Source of the DNA: Gammaproteobacteria bacterium
GTDB lineage: Bacteria > Pseudomonadota > Gammaproteobacteria > DRLM01
Reading direction: 5' to 3'
DNA length: 58,419 nt
Assembly: GCA_011375345.1 (NCBI GenBank)
Contig: DRLM01000120.1
Location: 1-58,419 of the forward strand
Shown: positions 32,182 through 56,888 of the stretch, piece after piece
Layout of the letters: every line of letters begins with the position of its first letter
Numbering within the stretch: position 1 is the stretch's first letter
Made by a program: the position numbers and the translations under genes
Notes under the pieces: model-generated
Database searches by the model: none
Seen by the model: only the letters and a program-made list of their open reading frames with translations
What the model was told of the DNA's origin: nothing

Positions 32182-33324
32182 ATGACGACCTGCTCCGACA
32201 GTCCCGAAGACCGCCGCTGGATGGCCCGCGCCCTGCGTCTGGCCGAGCGCGGCCGCTACAGCACCCACCCCAACCCGCGGGTGGGCTGTGTGCTGGTCAA
32301 GCAGGGCCGGATGGTCGGGGAAGGCTGGCACTGCCGTGCGGGCGGCCCCCATGCCGAAGTGGCGGCGCTGCAGCAGGCCGGTCCCCACGCCCGCGGTGCC
32401 ACGGCCTACGTGAGCCTGGAGCCCTGCAGCCATCATGGCCGTACGCCTCCTTGCGCCGGGGCGCTGATTGAAGCGGGTGTCACGCGGGTGGTGGCGGCCA
32501 TGGAAGACCCCAATCCCCACGTGGCGGGACAGGGTTTGCGGTGCCTGGCCGCCGCGGGTGTGGCCGTGCACAGCGGCGTGCTGGCGGCCGAAGCCGAAGC
32601 GCTGAACCCCGGCTTTTGCCGCCGTATGCGGGAGGGTCGGCCCTGGGTGCGGGCCAAGGTGGCCATGAGCCTGGACGGCCGAACGGCACTTTCCAATGGC
32701 GTGTCCCAGTGGATCACCGGCGAGGCGGCCCGCCGCGATGGGCAACGCCTGCGGGCAATGAGCAGCGCCGTGCTCACCGGCATCAGCACCGTGCTGGCGG
32801 ATGACCCTGCCCTCACCGTGCGCCTGAGCCCGGCGGAGCTGGACAGCCATTGCCAGGGCGAGGTGCGCCAGCCGCTGCGGGTGGTGCTGGACAGCGGCCT
32901 GCGTCTGCCGCCGGACGCCCGTTTGTTGCGCCAGCCCGGGGGCACGCTGGTGCTCACCGCCAGCGACGAACGGGTCGCCTGGCGCCGTTTGGCGTCTCCC
33001 CGTGTCACCGTGCACCGGCTGCCCCGCGCCGCCCGCAGCCTGGACCTGCACGCCGTGCTCACCCATCTGGCGGCAGAGGACATGAATGAAGTTTTGCTGG
33101 AAGCCGGGCCGACGCTGACCGGCGCATTATTGCGCGAAGGCCTGGTGGACGAATGGATTATCTACCTGGCGCCCAAGATCCTGGGTGACGGCGCCCGCGG
33201 TGTGTTCAAATTGCCAGTGTTTGATGACTTGGCACAATGCCCCCGGCTCGACATTACAGACATACGGGCCGTGGGTAGTGACTGGCGCATTACGGCAAAG
33301 GCCGAGCCGGTGCGCTCAACTTAA
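32182..33324 (+). CDS. ribD: Bifunctional diaminohydroxyphosphoribosylaminopyrimidine deaminase/reductase RibD
   Basis: RibD deaminates then reduces the pyrimidine intermediate of riboflavin synthesis. The 380-aa enzyme has the deaminase zinc site in GGPHAEVAALQQAG and SLEPCSHHGRTPPCAGALIEAG (first 145 residues) and a C-terminal NADPH reductase domain (KVAMSLDGRTALSNGVSQWITGEAAR...DMNEVLLEAGPTLTGALLREGLVDEWIIYLAPKILG). A 200-base gap without an FMN-riboswitch pattern precedes it. ribE follows 46 bases after the stop. Confidence 0.97.
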   Translation: MTTCSDSPEDRRWMARALRLAERGRYSTHPNPRVGCVLVKQGRMVGEGWHCRAGGPHAEVAALQQAGPHARGATAYVSLEPCSHHGRTPPCAGALIEAGVTRVVAAMEDPNPHVAGQGLRCLAAAGVAVHSGVLAAEAEALNPGFCRRMREGRPWVRAKVAMSLDGRTALSNGVSQWITGEAARRDGQRLRAMSSAVLTGISTVLADDPALTVRLSPAELDSHCQGEVRQPLRVVLDSGLRLPPDARLLRQPGGTLVLTASDERVAWRRLASPRVTVHRLPRAARSLDLHAVLTHLAAEDMNEVLLEAGPTLTGALLREGLVDEWIIYLAPKILGDGARGVFKLPVFDDLAQCPRLDITDIRAVGSDWRITAKAEPVRST

Positions 33325-33370
33325 ACAGGGTGTTTTTTCAAAAAACAGGGGCGCAACTGCGAAAACAACC

Positions 33371-34060
33371 ATGTTTACAGGTATCGTTCAAGCCGTCGGC
33401 CACATCGCCGCCCTGGAGCAAGGGGACGGCGATGCCCGCATCCGCATCCGTGCCGGCGCGTTGGATCTAAGCGGCGCGGTCCTGGGTGACAGTGTCAGCG
33501 TCAGCGGCGTGTGCCTTACCGCCGTGGCGCTGCACGATGACGGATTCAGCGCCGATGTGTCCGCCGAAACCCGCCGTTGCACCACTTTTTCCGGTTTGCG
33601 CGCGGGCGATCCCGTCAACCTGGAAAAGGCCCTCACCTTAAGCGCCCCCTTAGGGGGCCATCTGGTCAGCGGCCATGTGGACGGCGTCGGCGAAGTCATC
33701 CGGCGCGAACAGGCTGGCGCCTCCACCCGCTATGTGATCCGGGCGCCAGGTGAACTGGCCCGCTACATCGCCGCCAAGGGCTCCATCTGCGTGGACGGCG
33801 TCAGCCTCACCGTCAACACGGTGGCCGGCGCGGAGTTTTGGGTGAACGTCGTCCCTCACACCCTGGCGGTGACCACCTTGGGCCGCTATGCCGCCGGCAC
33901 CCGCGTCAATTTGGAAGTGGATTTGGTGGCGCGTTATCTGGAGCGTTTGGTGATGGGTGACGCCGCGGCGGAGCGCGGCGGTGTGAGCCGGGCGTTGTTG
34001 GCGCGGTATGGTTTTTTGCGGCCCGATGAGCGCGCCCGAAGGCGTGGGAAACAAACATGA
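33371..34060 (+). CDS. ribE: Riboflavin synthase, alpha chain
   Basis: This enzyme dismutates two molecules of dimethyl-ribityllumazine to riboflavin. The 229-aa protein begins MFTGIVQAVGHI and consists of two similar lumazine-binding barrels: the first with LGDSVSVSGVCLTAVALHDDGFSADVSAETRRCTTF and GHLVSGHVDGVGEV, the second with YIAAKGSICVDGVSLTVNTVAGAEFWVNVVPHT. The longer in-frame start overlaps ribD and is rejected. A palindromic 32-base repeat follows in the gap to ribBA. Confidence 0.97.
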   Translation: MFTGIVQAVGHIAALEQGDGDARIRIRAGALDLSGAVLGDSVSVSGVCLTAVALHDDGFSADVSAETRRCTTFSGLRAGDPVNLEKALTLSAPLGGHLVSGHVDGVGEVIRREQAGASTRYVIRAPGELARYIAAKGSICVDGVSLTVNTVAGAEFWVNVVPHTLAVTTLGRYAAGTRVNLEVDLVARYLERLVMGDAAAERGGVSRALLARYGFLRPDERARRRGKQT

Positions 34061-34100
34061 CAACCCCTCTTCCAGGCAAGGTGACGTCAGATTCTTCGCT

Positions 34101-34132
34101 ATTAACCCGGCAATTAGGATTGCCGGGTTAAT
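34101..34132. repeat. 32-nt palindromic dispersed repeat, copy 1
   Basis: Arms ATTAACCCGGCAAT and ATTGCCGGGTTAAT flank a central TAGG. The same sequence occurs again at 58276-58307 with one change. This copy is intergenic, 41 bases after ribE and 50 before ribBA. It may serve as a stem in the mRNA or a REP-like element. Confidence 0.85.
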
Positions 34133-34182
34133 ACCGTAACGAGGTCAACCGGGCTACGCAAAACCAAGGCCCCATCCCAACC

Positions 34183-35295
34183 ATGTCATTCAGCACCATC
34201 CCAGACATACTCGAAGATTTAAGAGCCGGTCGCATGGTGGTCATTGTCGATGACGAAGACCGCGAAAACGAGGGCGATCTGCTCATGGCCGCCAGCAAGG
34301 TGCGGCCGGAGGATATCAATTTCATGGCCCGCTACGGCCGCGGTTTGATCTGTCTCACCCTCACCCAGGAGCGCTGCGCCCAGCTGCGCCTGCCTTTGAT
34401 GGTGGGCGCCTCCCAGGGCAGTCATGGCACGCGCTTTACCGTCAGCATCGAGGCGGCGCGGGGGGTGAGCACGGGGATTTCCGCCAAGGACCGGGCCACC
34501 ACCATTCAGGCGGCGGTGGCGGCAGAGGCGAAACCGGAAGACGTGGTGCAGCCCGGGCACATTTTTCCCATTATGGCCCAGCCCGGCGGTGTGCTCACCC
34601 GCGCCGGTCATACCGAGGCCGGGTGCGATCTGGCGCGGCTGGCGGGGCTGGAACCGGCGGCGGTGATTGTCGAAATTCTCAACGAAGACGGCACCATGGC
34701 GCGGCGGCCCGAGCTGGAGCGTTTCGCCGCTGAGCACGGCTTGAAACTGGGTACCATTGCCGATCTTATCAGTTATCGTTTGCAGCACGAGAAAACCGTG
34801 GAGCGTCTCACTGAAACCGAGGTGCAAACACCTCACGGCCCGTTCCGTCTGTTGGCCTATCACGACGGTGTCACCGGTGACAGCCACCTGGCCCTGGTCA
34901 GGGGCGACATCGACCCTGACACGCCTGCTTTGGTGCGGGTGCACATGCTGGACATTCTGGGCGACGTGCTGGGCCTGGGCCGTTTTGATGCCACCTGGCC
35001 ACTCAACGATGCCCTGCAGCGCATCGCCCAGGAAGGGGGCGTGCTGATCGTGCTCCGGCGGCCCAACGAGGAGCAGGAGGTGTTGCAGCGCATCCGCAAC
35101 TGGTGTTTGCAGAGCCGGGGCGGGGCGCCGCCCCAGCCGCCGGCCGGCGGCGATGAATTGCGCACCTACGGCGTGGGCGCGCAGATACTGGCTGACATTG
35201 GCGTGGGCAAAATGCGGGTTATCGGTTCGCGGCGGCGTTTGCATGGCGTGTCGGGCTTTGGCCTGGAAGTGGTGGAGTATCTGGAACATGACTGA
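34183..35295 (+). CDS. ribB: RibBA-like protein: 3,4-dihydroxy-2-butanone-4-phosphate synthase with degenerate GTP cyclohydrolase II domain
   Basis: The N-terminal half (1-200) is an intact RibB domain that makes the four-carbon unit of riboflavin: [61 protein letters not shown]. The C-terminal half (about 205-370) has the RibA fold ([49 protein letters not shown]) but lacks the three zinc cysteines that active enzymes carry (canonical VRVHSECLTGD...RCDCG; here residues 251-270 hold no Cys). GTP cyclohydrolase II activity is therefore unlikely. The last 8 bases overlap a GNAT gene. Confidence 0.95.
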
Positions 35296-35719
35296 TGGCA
35301 CAGCCGTCGCCATTGCCGGCAGCGATGGCGCCATCCAGGCCTGTTTTCCCGTGATGGTCCAGCTGCGCCCTCATTTGCGGGCGGAGGAATTTGTACCGCG
35401 CGTGCGCCGGCAAATGGACGCCGGTTTTCGTCTGGTGGCCCTGAGTGAGGGAGGCGCGGTGAAAGCCGTGGCCGGTTTCCGCCTCAGCGAGAATCTCGTT
35501 TTCGGCCGCTTCATGTATGTGGACGATCTGGTCACCGACGCGCACAGCCGCTCTGCCGGTCATGGCCGCGTCCTGTTCGACTGGCTGGTGCGCCACGCCC
35601 GTGAAAACGGCTGTAGCCATCTGGAACTGGATTCGGGCGTGCAGCGTTTCGATGCCCACCGTTTCTATCTCCGCCAGCGCATGGTCCTGCGCAGCCATCA
35701 CTTCTCCTTGAAGTTGTGA
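35288..35719 (+). CDS. GNAT family N-acetyltransferase
   Basis: A 143-aa protein with a GNAT core: VRRQMDAGFRLVALSEGGAVKAVAGFRLSENLVFGRFMYVDDLVTDAHSRSAGHGRVLFDWLVRHARENGCSHLELDSGVQRFDAHRFYLRQRM. The SAGHGRVL loop is the acetyl-CoA pyrophosphate-binding motif (Q/RxxGxG/A-like) and LELDSG...AHRFYLR are the last strands. The ATG at 35288 overlaps the end of ribBA by 8 bases, which suggests coupled translation. The acetyl acceptor is unknown; a link to riboflavin synthesis is only positional. Confidence 0.9.
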   Translation: MTDGTAVAIAGSDGAIQACFPVMVQLRPHLRAEEFVPRVRRQMDAGFRLVALSEGGAVKAVAGFRLSENLVFGRFMYVDDLVTDAHSRSAGHGRVLFDWLVRHARENGCSHLELDSGVQRFDAHRFYLRQRMVLRSHHFSLKL

Positions 35720-35914
35720 GCTGTTGAGCGCGTGCCGTAACAATCAGCCGTGCCACCGTCATCCTTCATTACCCCTTTGGGAAGGGGGTGAGACGGTCAC
35801 TTGGCTGCGGCTGATCAACCCTCCTTGCCAGTAGTGCTAGAATGCACAACTTTCAGTCCATAAGTAATTTCGCCTCCGCCGCGCGGGGGTGAGCCCACAG
35901 CGAGACCCCTACCC

Positions 35915-36388
35915 ATGAGCGAGATCAACACCTTTGCCGGTGATTTCACCGCCACGGACGCGCGCTTTGCCCTGGTCGCCGGGCGTTTCAACAGCTTCAT
36001 TGTTGAGCATCTCATCAACGGCGCGGTGGATGCCTTGCACCGCCACGGCGTTGGCCGCTCCCATATCGATTTGATCCAGGTGCCGGGGGCCTTTGAAATC
36101 CCCCTGGCGGTGCAGCGGGTGGCGGCCAGCGGCCGCTTTGACGCGGTCATTGCCCTGGCCTGCATCATTCGTGGCGGCACCCCCCATTTCGACTACGTGG
36201 CCGGGGAGTGCGCCAAGGGGGTGGCCGGGGTGGCGTTGAAGCATGATCTGCCGGTGGCTTTTGGTATTCTCACTGTGGACACTGTCGAGCAGGCCATCGA
36301 ACGGGCCGGCACCAAGGCCGGCAACAAAGGCGTGGAAGCGGCGCTGGCGGCGCTGGAAATGGTCAGCCTGCTGCGAAAACTGCCGTGA
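35915..36388 (+). CDS. ribH: 6,7-dimethyl-8-ribityllumazine synthase
   Basis: RibH condenses the pyrimidine with dihydroxybutanone phosphate to make the direct precursor of riboflavin, usually as a 60-mer or pentamer. The 157-aa protein shows [102 protein letters not shown] and [16 protein letters not shown]. The ATG at 35915 fits the family. A 195-base gap separates it from the GNAT gene and holds no visible gene. nusB follows 22 bases later. Confidence 0.97.
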
Positions 36389-41087: not shown

Positions 41088-41888
41088 TCATGGCGCCGTT
41101 TTGTCTCGTTCTATCAGGGCGTAGGCGGAATGGTTGTGAATGGATTCAAAGTTTTCCACCGCTACGGTATAGCGCAGAATCCGCGCTTCTGCGTCGAGGC
41201 GGGCCGCGACGTCGCGCACCATGTCTTCGACGAATTTGGGGTTGTCGTAGGCGCGCTCGGTGATGAACTTCTCGTCCGGCCGCTTGATCAGCCCGTAGAT
41301 TTCTGAGGAGGCCTCCTCTTCCACCAGCCGGATCAAGGCTTCCACCCCCAAAGGCTCCCGGCCGCTGGCGCTGACGGTGACGTGGGAACGCTGGTTGTGC
41401 GCGCCGTAAGCGGAGATTTCCTTGGAGCAGGGGCACAAACTGGTGACCGGTACCACGACTTTGACGGTGATGCGGTTTTCGCCATTGCGGCGCTCACCGG
41501 ACAGAGTGACGTTGTAGTCCAGCAAACTGGATACGCCGGACATTGGCGCCTGTTTGTTGACGAAATAGGGGAAACGCACTTCCGCATAAGCCTGGGATGC
41601 GTTCAAGGTGGTGGAGATGTTTTCCAACAGTTGGTGCATGGCCGCCACCGAGACCACGTGTTCACCGGCGTTGAGCAGCTGGATGAAACGCGACATATGG
41701 GTGCCGCGGTGGGCCGGGGCCAGGTTGACGTACATGCTGAATACGCCCACACCGTGCTGCATCCGGCCGCCGGGACCGGGCACGCGGATGGGATGGCGGA
41801 TGTCCTTGATGCCGACTTTGTTGATGGCGATGCGGCGCGCGGCGTTTTGGCCCTGCACGTCCAGCAGCGATGCGGGGACGCGGCTCAT
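41088..41888 (-). CDS. folE2: GTP cyclohydrolase FolE2
   Basis: FolE2 (type IB) makes 7,8-dihydroneopterin triphosphate from GTP for folate or queuosine synthesis and can work with metals other than zinc. The 266-aa protein has [53 protein letters not shown] with the conserved Cys, and [20 protein letters not shown]. The ATG at 41888 overlaps queD by four bases (ATGA). The longer frame upstream overlaps queD and is not used. Confidence 0.95.
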
Positions 41889-42274
41889 GGAGCGGCTTCC
41901 TCGCTGTAGCGCACGCAGGCCCGGTCCGTTTCCCACAGAGTGATGGCCGAGACCCGGACACGGGCCCCGTTCAGGGCCTCGCCCACGTGCTGATACAGAT
42001 AGGCGGCGATGTTTTCCGCGGTGGGATTGACCACGTCAAAGGGTCGGATCTCATTGAGGTGGCGATGGTCCAGTTCCGCCACGGCGAGCTTGGCGGCATG
42101 TTTGATGGCTTTGAAATCCAGTCCCATGCCCACCTCATCCAGAGCGGTGGCGATCACTTCCACTTCAACCTTCCAGTTGTGGCCGTGCAGCCGGCTGCAG
42201 GCACCGGGGTAGTTGCGCAAACTGTGGGCGGCGGCGAAATCGGTGATGACTTTCAGTGTGTAGCGTGGTGGCAT
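41885..42274 (-). CDS. queD: 6-carboxytetrahydropterin synthase QueD
   Basis: QueD converts dihydroneopterin triphosphate to 6-carboxytetrahydropterin, the second step to queuosine. The 129-aa protein has [31 protein letters not shown], with His17 and the HGH pair as zinc ligands and Cys26 as the catalytic nucleophile, and [27 protein letters not shown]. It overlaps folE2 by four bases, which means the first two enzymes of preQ0 synthesis are coupled. queA and tgt are encoded about 20 kb away. It could also act as a pterin synthase. Confidence 0.93.
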
Positions 42275-55062: not shown

Positions 55063-56334
55063 TCAACCGTTGCGGGGGGGTGGTTCTTCGTTCTGGCGGG
55101 TCTGCGGCGGCGCCACGTCCCAAGCCTGATCCTGTAGTTCCAGAAGGTCGTGATCGTCTTTGCGGATCAAGGCCTCCAGCTCTTCCCTGAGCTGTTTTGC
55201 GCGGGACATGTACAGCGACTCGTCGTGTTTCAAAGCGGCCAGTTCTCTCCGGGCCGCAACATCGTGCCGCTTGAAAGTGCGCGCCGCGCGGCTGGCCTGA
55301 TAGGCGCGAAAGCCCAGCAGGCGCAAGGCCTCCTCGCCCAGGTCCAGGGCGCTGCCGAACATCTCGCGATAAACATGCGGGACATCCCGTTGAATCAACT
55401 CATAGGCGTGAAAGCGGCTGATGGCCCGCGCCAGAATTTTTAAATGGGGATAGTGCTGGCGGGCGTGCTCTGCGATGTGCAAAGCTTTTTCTTCGTCGTC
55501 AATGGCGATGACCAGCAGTTTCGCCTGCCCGGCCCCGGCCGCGTGCAGCAGTTCCGGGCGGCCGGCATCGCCGTAGAACACTTTGAATCCGAATTTTTTG
55601 AGAAACCCGATCCGGGAGGCATCGTGGTCCAGCACCGTGGTGCCCACGCCGTTGGCGTGCAGCAAGCGGCCCACGAGCTGGCCGAAGCGGCCGAAGCCGA
55701 GAATGATGACGGGGTTGTCGTGCTCGTCGATGACATCGGCCGCGCCGGCGGCCATGTCCGGCGCCAGGCGGGGTTGTACCCACTTGTCGTTGATCAGCAT
55801 CAACACCGGCGTCAGCAACATGGAAACGGCCACACACAGCACCAAGGGGTTGCTGATATTGGCGTCCATCACGCCGGACTGGGTCGCCAGGGCGGACAGC
55901 ACGAAGGCAAACTCACCGCCCTGGGCCAGGGCCAGGGAAAACAAAACATTGTCGCGGCTGGGCAGGCGGAAGACACGGCCCACCGCCAGCAACACGGCGA
56001 GCTTGATCAGCACCAGCGCCACCACGATGGCGGCGATGACTTCGGGATACCGGCGCAGCAGATCGAAATCGATACTTGCCCCCACCGAGATGAAAAACAA
56101 TCCCAGCAGCAGACCCTTGAACGGTTCGATATTGGATTCCAGCTCGTGGCGGTACTCGCTCTCCGCTAACACCACCCCGGCGAGAAACGTGCCCAAAGCA
56201 GGGGGCAGCCCCAGGCTTTGCATGGCCAGGGCGATGCCGATGACCAGCAGCAAGGCCGCCGCGGTGAACATCTCCCGCAGCCTGCTCTGGGCGATATAGC
56301 GCAGCACCGGTCGCACCAGGTAATAGCCGCCCAT
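55063..56334 (-). CDS. KefB/KefC-type K+/H+ antiporter, N-terminally truncated
   Basis: The frame encodes a 423-aa protein that starts in the middle of a Kef-type membrane domain: GGYYLVRPVLRYIAQSRLREMF, GTFLAGVVLAESEYRHELESNIEPFKGLLLGLFFISVGASIDF, NVLFSLALAQGGEFAFVLSAL. About six of the usual twelve or more membrane segments remain and roughly the first 215 residues of KefC are missing. The cytoplasmic RCK/TrkA-N domain (VIILGFGRFGQLVGRLL) and the C-terminal tail are complete. The ATG at 56334 overlaps the kefG stop as TGATG. It is probably non-functional as an antiporter, or altered. Confidence 0.8.
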   Translation of the reverse strand: MGGYYLVRPVLRYIAQSRLREMFTAAALLLVIGIALAMQSLGLPPALGTFLAGVVLAESEYRHELESNIEPFKGLLLGLFFISVGASIDFDLLRRYPEVIAAIVVALVLIKLAVLLAVGRVFRLPSRDNVLFSLALAQGGEFAFVLSALATQSGVMDANISNPLVLCVAVSMLLTPVLMLINDKWVQPRLAPDMAAGAADVIDEHDNPVIILGFGRFGQLVGRLLHANGVGTTVLDHDASRIGFLKKFGFKVFYGDAGRPELLHAAGAGQAKLLVIAIDDEEKALHIAEHARQHYPHLKILARAISRFHAYELIQRDVPHVYREMFGSALDLGEEALRLLGFRAYQASRAARTFKRHDVAARRELAALKHDESLYMSRAKQLREELEALIRKDDHDLLELQDQAWDVAPPQTRQNEEPPPRNG

Positions 56335-56888
56335 CACATCGTCCACGCGTGCGCCGTCACGCAAGGCACGCAGCACGTTGCATAGCGGGTGGCCGCATCG
56401 TCCAACAGCGGCGAGCGGTGCAGCTTGTCGGTGGCGTGCACCACGAAGGGTGGCAGATAGCGCATGCCGCACAGGTCGGCCGTGCGCCTGAACGGGGCCA
56501 GCAACTCGGACATGGTGGGATGGGACACCCCGTCATAGGCGGCGCGCTCCCCGCCGGTGGTGGTGGCCGTAAGCAGCCATTTGCCGTGCAAGGCGGTGCC
56601 TTGGCGGCCGTAAGCGAAACCGTATTCCAACACCAGATCCTGCCATTCCTTGAGCAGGGCGGGGGTGCTGTACCAATAAAAAGGGTGATGGAACACAATC
56701 ACGTCGTGCTCCGCCAACAAGGCCTGTTCCCGTGGCACGTCCACGCAGAAATCGGGGTAGATTTCGTAAAGATCATGCACGTGCACGCCCGCCAGCCTCT
56801 GCGCCGCCGCGAGCAAGTGCCTGTTCACCACGGATTTTTCGAAGGCGGGGTGGGCGAACAAGATCAGTATGCGGCGCCTTGGGGTCAT
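56334..56888 (-). CDS. KefF/KefG-type quinone oxidoreductase ancillary protein
   Basis: A 184-aa flavodoxin-like protein that would activate a Kef potassium antiporter. It has [22 protein letters not shown] (flavin phosphate loop), [49 protein letters not shown] and [18 protein letters not shown]. After Tyr169 the sequence turns to [13 protein letters not shown]. Read one frame over, the same DNA gives [14 protein letters not shown], the kind of ending KefG proteins have, so a one-base loss near 56381 is likely. It lies 40 bases after a lipoprotein gene and abuts the truncated kefB. Confidence 0.85.

Follow-up and report, generated by a model that had tools for sequence, protein, structure and literature searches.

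A truncated kefG-kefB pair in a gammaproteobacterial draft genome: probable recent inactivation of a glutathione-gated K+ efflux system

Results

The window, i.e., the whole stretch of DNA analysed here, is contig C120 at its full length of 58,419 bp, and the host draft genome to which it belongs comprises 2.68 Mb in 162 contigs and is 99% complete. Close to the right end of the window lie, both on the minus strand, a kefG-like frame with its ATG at 56886-56888 and its TGA stop at 56334-56336, and a Kef antiporter frame (55063-56334) with its ATG at 56332-56334, which is intact over 423 codons from that ATG and has no stop in 422 codons. The stop of kefG thus overlaps the first ATG of the antiporter frame in a TGATG at 56332-56336. 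The overlap, and the coordinates of the pair (55063-56888), are as given in a preliminary description of this DNA. Elsewhere, the window has a riboflavin cluster, ribD-ribE-ribBA-ribH, on the plus strand at 32182-36388, in which a frame for a GNAT acetyltransferase separates ribBA from ribH, and, on the minus strand at 41088-42274, a PTPS (queD-like) gene and folE2 (GCHY-1) in tandem, both complete.

Codons 1-169 of kefG (56382-56888, minus strand) are family-like throughout, as judged by Pfam, relatives and near-invariant residues. Residues 6-170 match Flavodoxin_2 (E 9.8e-45), the identity to KefG of the best relatives is 58-64%, and only one of 38 near-invariant residues is changed, which is in the range of intact genes. 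Near the GGERAAYDG stretch (about 56520-56550, minus strand) KefG has two residues fewer than its relatives; this difference is in frame and probably harmless.

After Tyr169 the family frame is lost, and the frame ends with 15 codons without family character and the TGA (56334-56381, minus strand). In the relatives, the conserved YLPPF region is followed by Y-R-x-x-L-E-A-L-R-D-G, and three-frame translation places the corresponding motif, NVLRALRDG, in the antiporter frame (displaced segment 56338-56379, minus strand), where it leads straight into GGYYLVRP. When a profile of nine columns, built from the KefG tails of relatives, was scored at all six-frame positions of the window, NVLRALRDG came out on top of 116,786 9-mers with 18.4 bits, the runner-up having 11.9. 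From this it follows that the displaced tail is real and that chance is excluded; the earlier proposal that KefG loses family character after Tyr169, and that a one-base shift would restore its tail, is thereby confirmed. KefG has the Flavodoxin_2 fold, and its gene immediately precedes that of a kef antiporter, as expected of a KefG/KefF ancillary oxidoreductase; it lacks the intact C-terminal tail of its relatives, most of which are about 200-208 aa long. Its NCBIfam scores lie below the cut-offs, with 201 of 210 bits for KefF and 184 of 240 bits for KefG.

The antiporter frame, as mapped with Pfam, NCBIfam and an alignment to the KefC structure 8bxg (PDB), consists of the end of TM7, TM8-TM13, the RCK (TrkA_N) domain and the C-terminal domain. 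It covers only positions 194-374 of the 375 in Pfam Na_H_Exchanger, while TrkA_N is nearly whole (positions 1-113 of 116, E 2.9e-22), so that the first half of the membrane domain is absent and the RCK domain intact, just as first reported. The NCBIfam KefC match starts at profile position 196 and scores 494 bits where the cut-off is 752, and the KefB match scores 445 bits where it is 804, as expected of a truncated copy. The truncated start had been placed at about residue 215 of KefC, which is slightly high: the alignment with 8bxg begins at about residue 183, the family-like part (GGYYLVRP) begins at about residue 197/198, and the same point corresponds to about residue 210 in the nearest full-length relatives.

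What remains is well preserved, with two of 90 near-invariant positions changed (again in the range of intact genes) and with the equivalents of K307 and E337 and of the GSH-site residues Q412, R416 and F441 all retained (KefC numbering; 8bxg alignment). The position of F441 is that of the trigger residue of KefC (PMC10224563). The remnant thus has the RCK/TrkA_N domain with GSH-site residues of a Kef antiporter, and lacks a complete 13-TM CPA2 domain with the QD motif (Q155, D156) on TM6. The ligands of K+ in E. coli KefC are Q155, D156, T127 and the carbonyl of S125, and contact of TM1 with TM8 holds the dimer together (PMC11150392). When these features are mapped by the 8bxg alignment, S125, T127, Q155 and D156, as well as TM1, fall in the lost half, while TM8 is retained. 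Because neither the K+ site (TM5/TM6) nor the contact that TM1 makes in the dimer remains, we infer that the remnant would not mediate K+ efflux and cannot work as an antiporter.

The closest relative of the pair is the kefGB of an uncultured Chromatiaceae MAG (FCS_M_Gamma_042; L034), its sister in the tree with support 100/98. This pair is 63% identical to the window's over the remnant and 58% in KefG but, in contrast to it, full length, with a KefG of 207 aa and a KefB of 621 aa. Sized by motif positions, the stretch of L034 flanked by the equivalents of the window's junction borders measures 692 bp. The window lacks ~20 codons at the end of kefG and ~210 at the start of kefB, the latter encoding TM1-TM6 with the K+ site and most of TM7. 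The preliminary description was therefore right that there is a deletion, which it put somewhat too short at about 650 bases. The junction between KefG tail and KefB is located by comparison with relatives to 56330-56340 (minus strand), the exact breakpoint not being fixable to the base.

In nearly all relatives that have kefG upstream, its end and a full-length kefB (about 613-660 codons) are only a few bases, or at most some tens of bases, apart. The short form occurs in none of the 107 loci with a kefB match, one of which breaks off at the edge of its contig, and the close matches in a survey of the class all have open frames of at least 597 codons. A comparison with close relatives, suggested at the outset as a check, thus found kefB at full length in every comparable one. 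The other Kef genes examined are also full length (about 600-660 aa), with the exception of one reading: in an Oleispira MAG (L076, 5359-6724), kefB stops after 455 codons from a normal start while the protein match extends beyond, and this may be a further case of a broken kefB, with the damage on the C-terminal side.

Relatives of the pair were found in Chromatiaceae, Lysobacterales, Acidobacteriota and Cyanobacteriota, and its distribution looks patchy. Two genomes of the same family (G001, G002) have other Kef copies, full length and with 44-46% identity, and kefG was not among the listed matches from the stretches fetched around them. Conservation of the uup-adjacent context within the family was rejected: G002 does not have it, and its own Kef is a different copy, 46% identical.

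The host genome has, in addition to the kefB remnant, two further antiporter genes of the Na_H_Exchanger family. An E. coli-type gshA (PF04262) is absent from it, and a PF08886-type gshA (E 2e-188) is found beside gshB (G000:C96:21545-23970; L125, L115). Judged by these genes, the host appears to make glutathione. As both gshA and gshB are retained, loss of glutathione synthesis was rejected as the cause of Kef loss. With the two further antiporters and the glutathione genes, loss of KefGB might be tolerable for the host.

Relative-rate tests against L034, L035 and L048 gave no acceleration for either the remnant or KefG (Tajima chi2 mostly below 2), and the terminal branch is 0.48 for the window and 0.43 for L034. 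Both retained halves look undamaged at the sequence level. Since the near-invariant residues are kept, the rate is like that of L034 and there is no internal stop, the lesion is either very young or absent from the organism altogether.

Discussion

The KefGB system itself is already well known, and what is found here is an ordinary inactivation or an assembly artefact. The window shares with the KefGB/KefFC systems of glutathione-gated K+ efflux (a CPA2 antiporter with an ancillary oxidoreductase) the order kefG then kefB with adjoining or overlapping genes, the Flavodoxin_2 helper, the antiporter with Na_H_Exchanger and TrkA_N, and the GSH-site residues of the RCK domain; it differs from them by the absence of the first ~200-210 antiporter residues and of an in-frame KefG C-terminus.

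We consider it probable, rather than certain, that an ordinary kefG-kefB operon was inactivated recently, and specifically in this lineage, by a ~690 bp deletion and a one-base indel. The operon would have encoded a glutathione-gated K+/H+ antiporter and its flavodoxin-like helper. The deletion would have joined the 3' end of kefG to kefB at codon ~200-210, and a separate indel ~45 nt upstream would have shifted the reading frame of what was left of the kefG tail; this is the history that had been proposed earlier, and the relatives bear it out. KefG, its C-terminus altered, may nonetheless be able to fold into a soluble oxidoreductase. The remnant, with six TM helices and the RCK domain, may either go untranslated or be produced in small amounts through translational coupling at TGATG. 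Measured against the branch of the gene, the lesion would be young, and the two frames would form a pseudogene pair at an early stage.

The strongest competing explanation is that the assembly is wrong at this spot: kefGB would be intact in the genome itself, and the consensus of the draft would have dropped ~690 bp and one base where coverage is weak or strains vary. We find this rather unlikely, though deserving of serious weight. The assembly is a draft of 162 contigs, neither retained half shows damage or an abnormal rate of evolution, and two lesions ~45 bp apart, i.e., within ~50 bp, in the absence of other decay and among checked genes that are otherwise sound, also fit such an error. 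Against it, there is no N run, there is no homopolymer at the frameshift, and the missing N-terminal half is found on no other contig of the 99%-complete assembly, where the best other match is a 28% paralogue. The only repeat near the junction that could explain the deletion is a 9-bp pair (TGGACGATG), near chance level, and its ancestral second copy is not visible. Widespread frameshifts in the contig were rejected, as the overlapping frames tested are complete, separate neighbouring genes, which is still compatible with one bad spot.

Of the two outcomes offered in the preliminary description, a dead pair and an RCK regulator that has acquired a new membrane anchor, the first is favoured, since the lost half contains the K+ site (PMC11150392) and the short form is seen in no relative; no positive support was found for the second, nor for a functional half-antiporter. 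It is improbable that a short protein of six TM helices and RCK, started at TGATG, works together with KefG as a regulator that senses GSH or nucleotides. The frame of the remnant is unbroken, the RCK ligand residues Q412, R416 and F441 are kept and coupled translation at TGATG is possible, but the form is absent from all relatives examined, half of the transport core and the native start region of kefB are gone, and the conservation is equally expected from a very recent lesion. That a naturally shortened Kef (TM8-TM13 and RCK) has been retained as a non-transporting redox sensor, as partner of KefG, appears slightly more improbable still. A kefG-kefB fusion protein, for which the one-base slip is a sequencing error or is bypassed by ribosomal frameshifting, is hardly credible: the KefG tail and the Kef remnant do share one frame, but the slip is in the consensus without a slippery run or homopolymer, and the K+ site would still be missing.

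Automatic annotation pipelines would probably name these frames KefG/KefF-like and KefC/KefB-like, even though the antiporter, as judged from the structure of KefC, is unable to transport K+. Should the lesion be real, the lineage would have lost one of its defences against electrophiles while still making glutathione.
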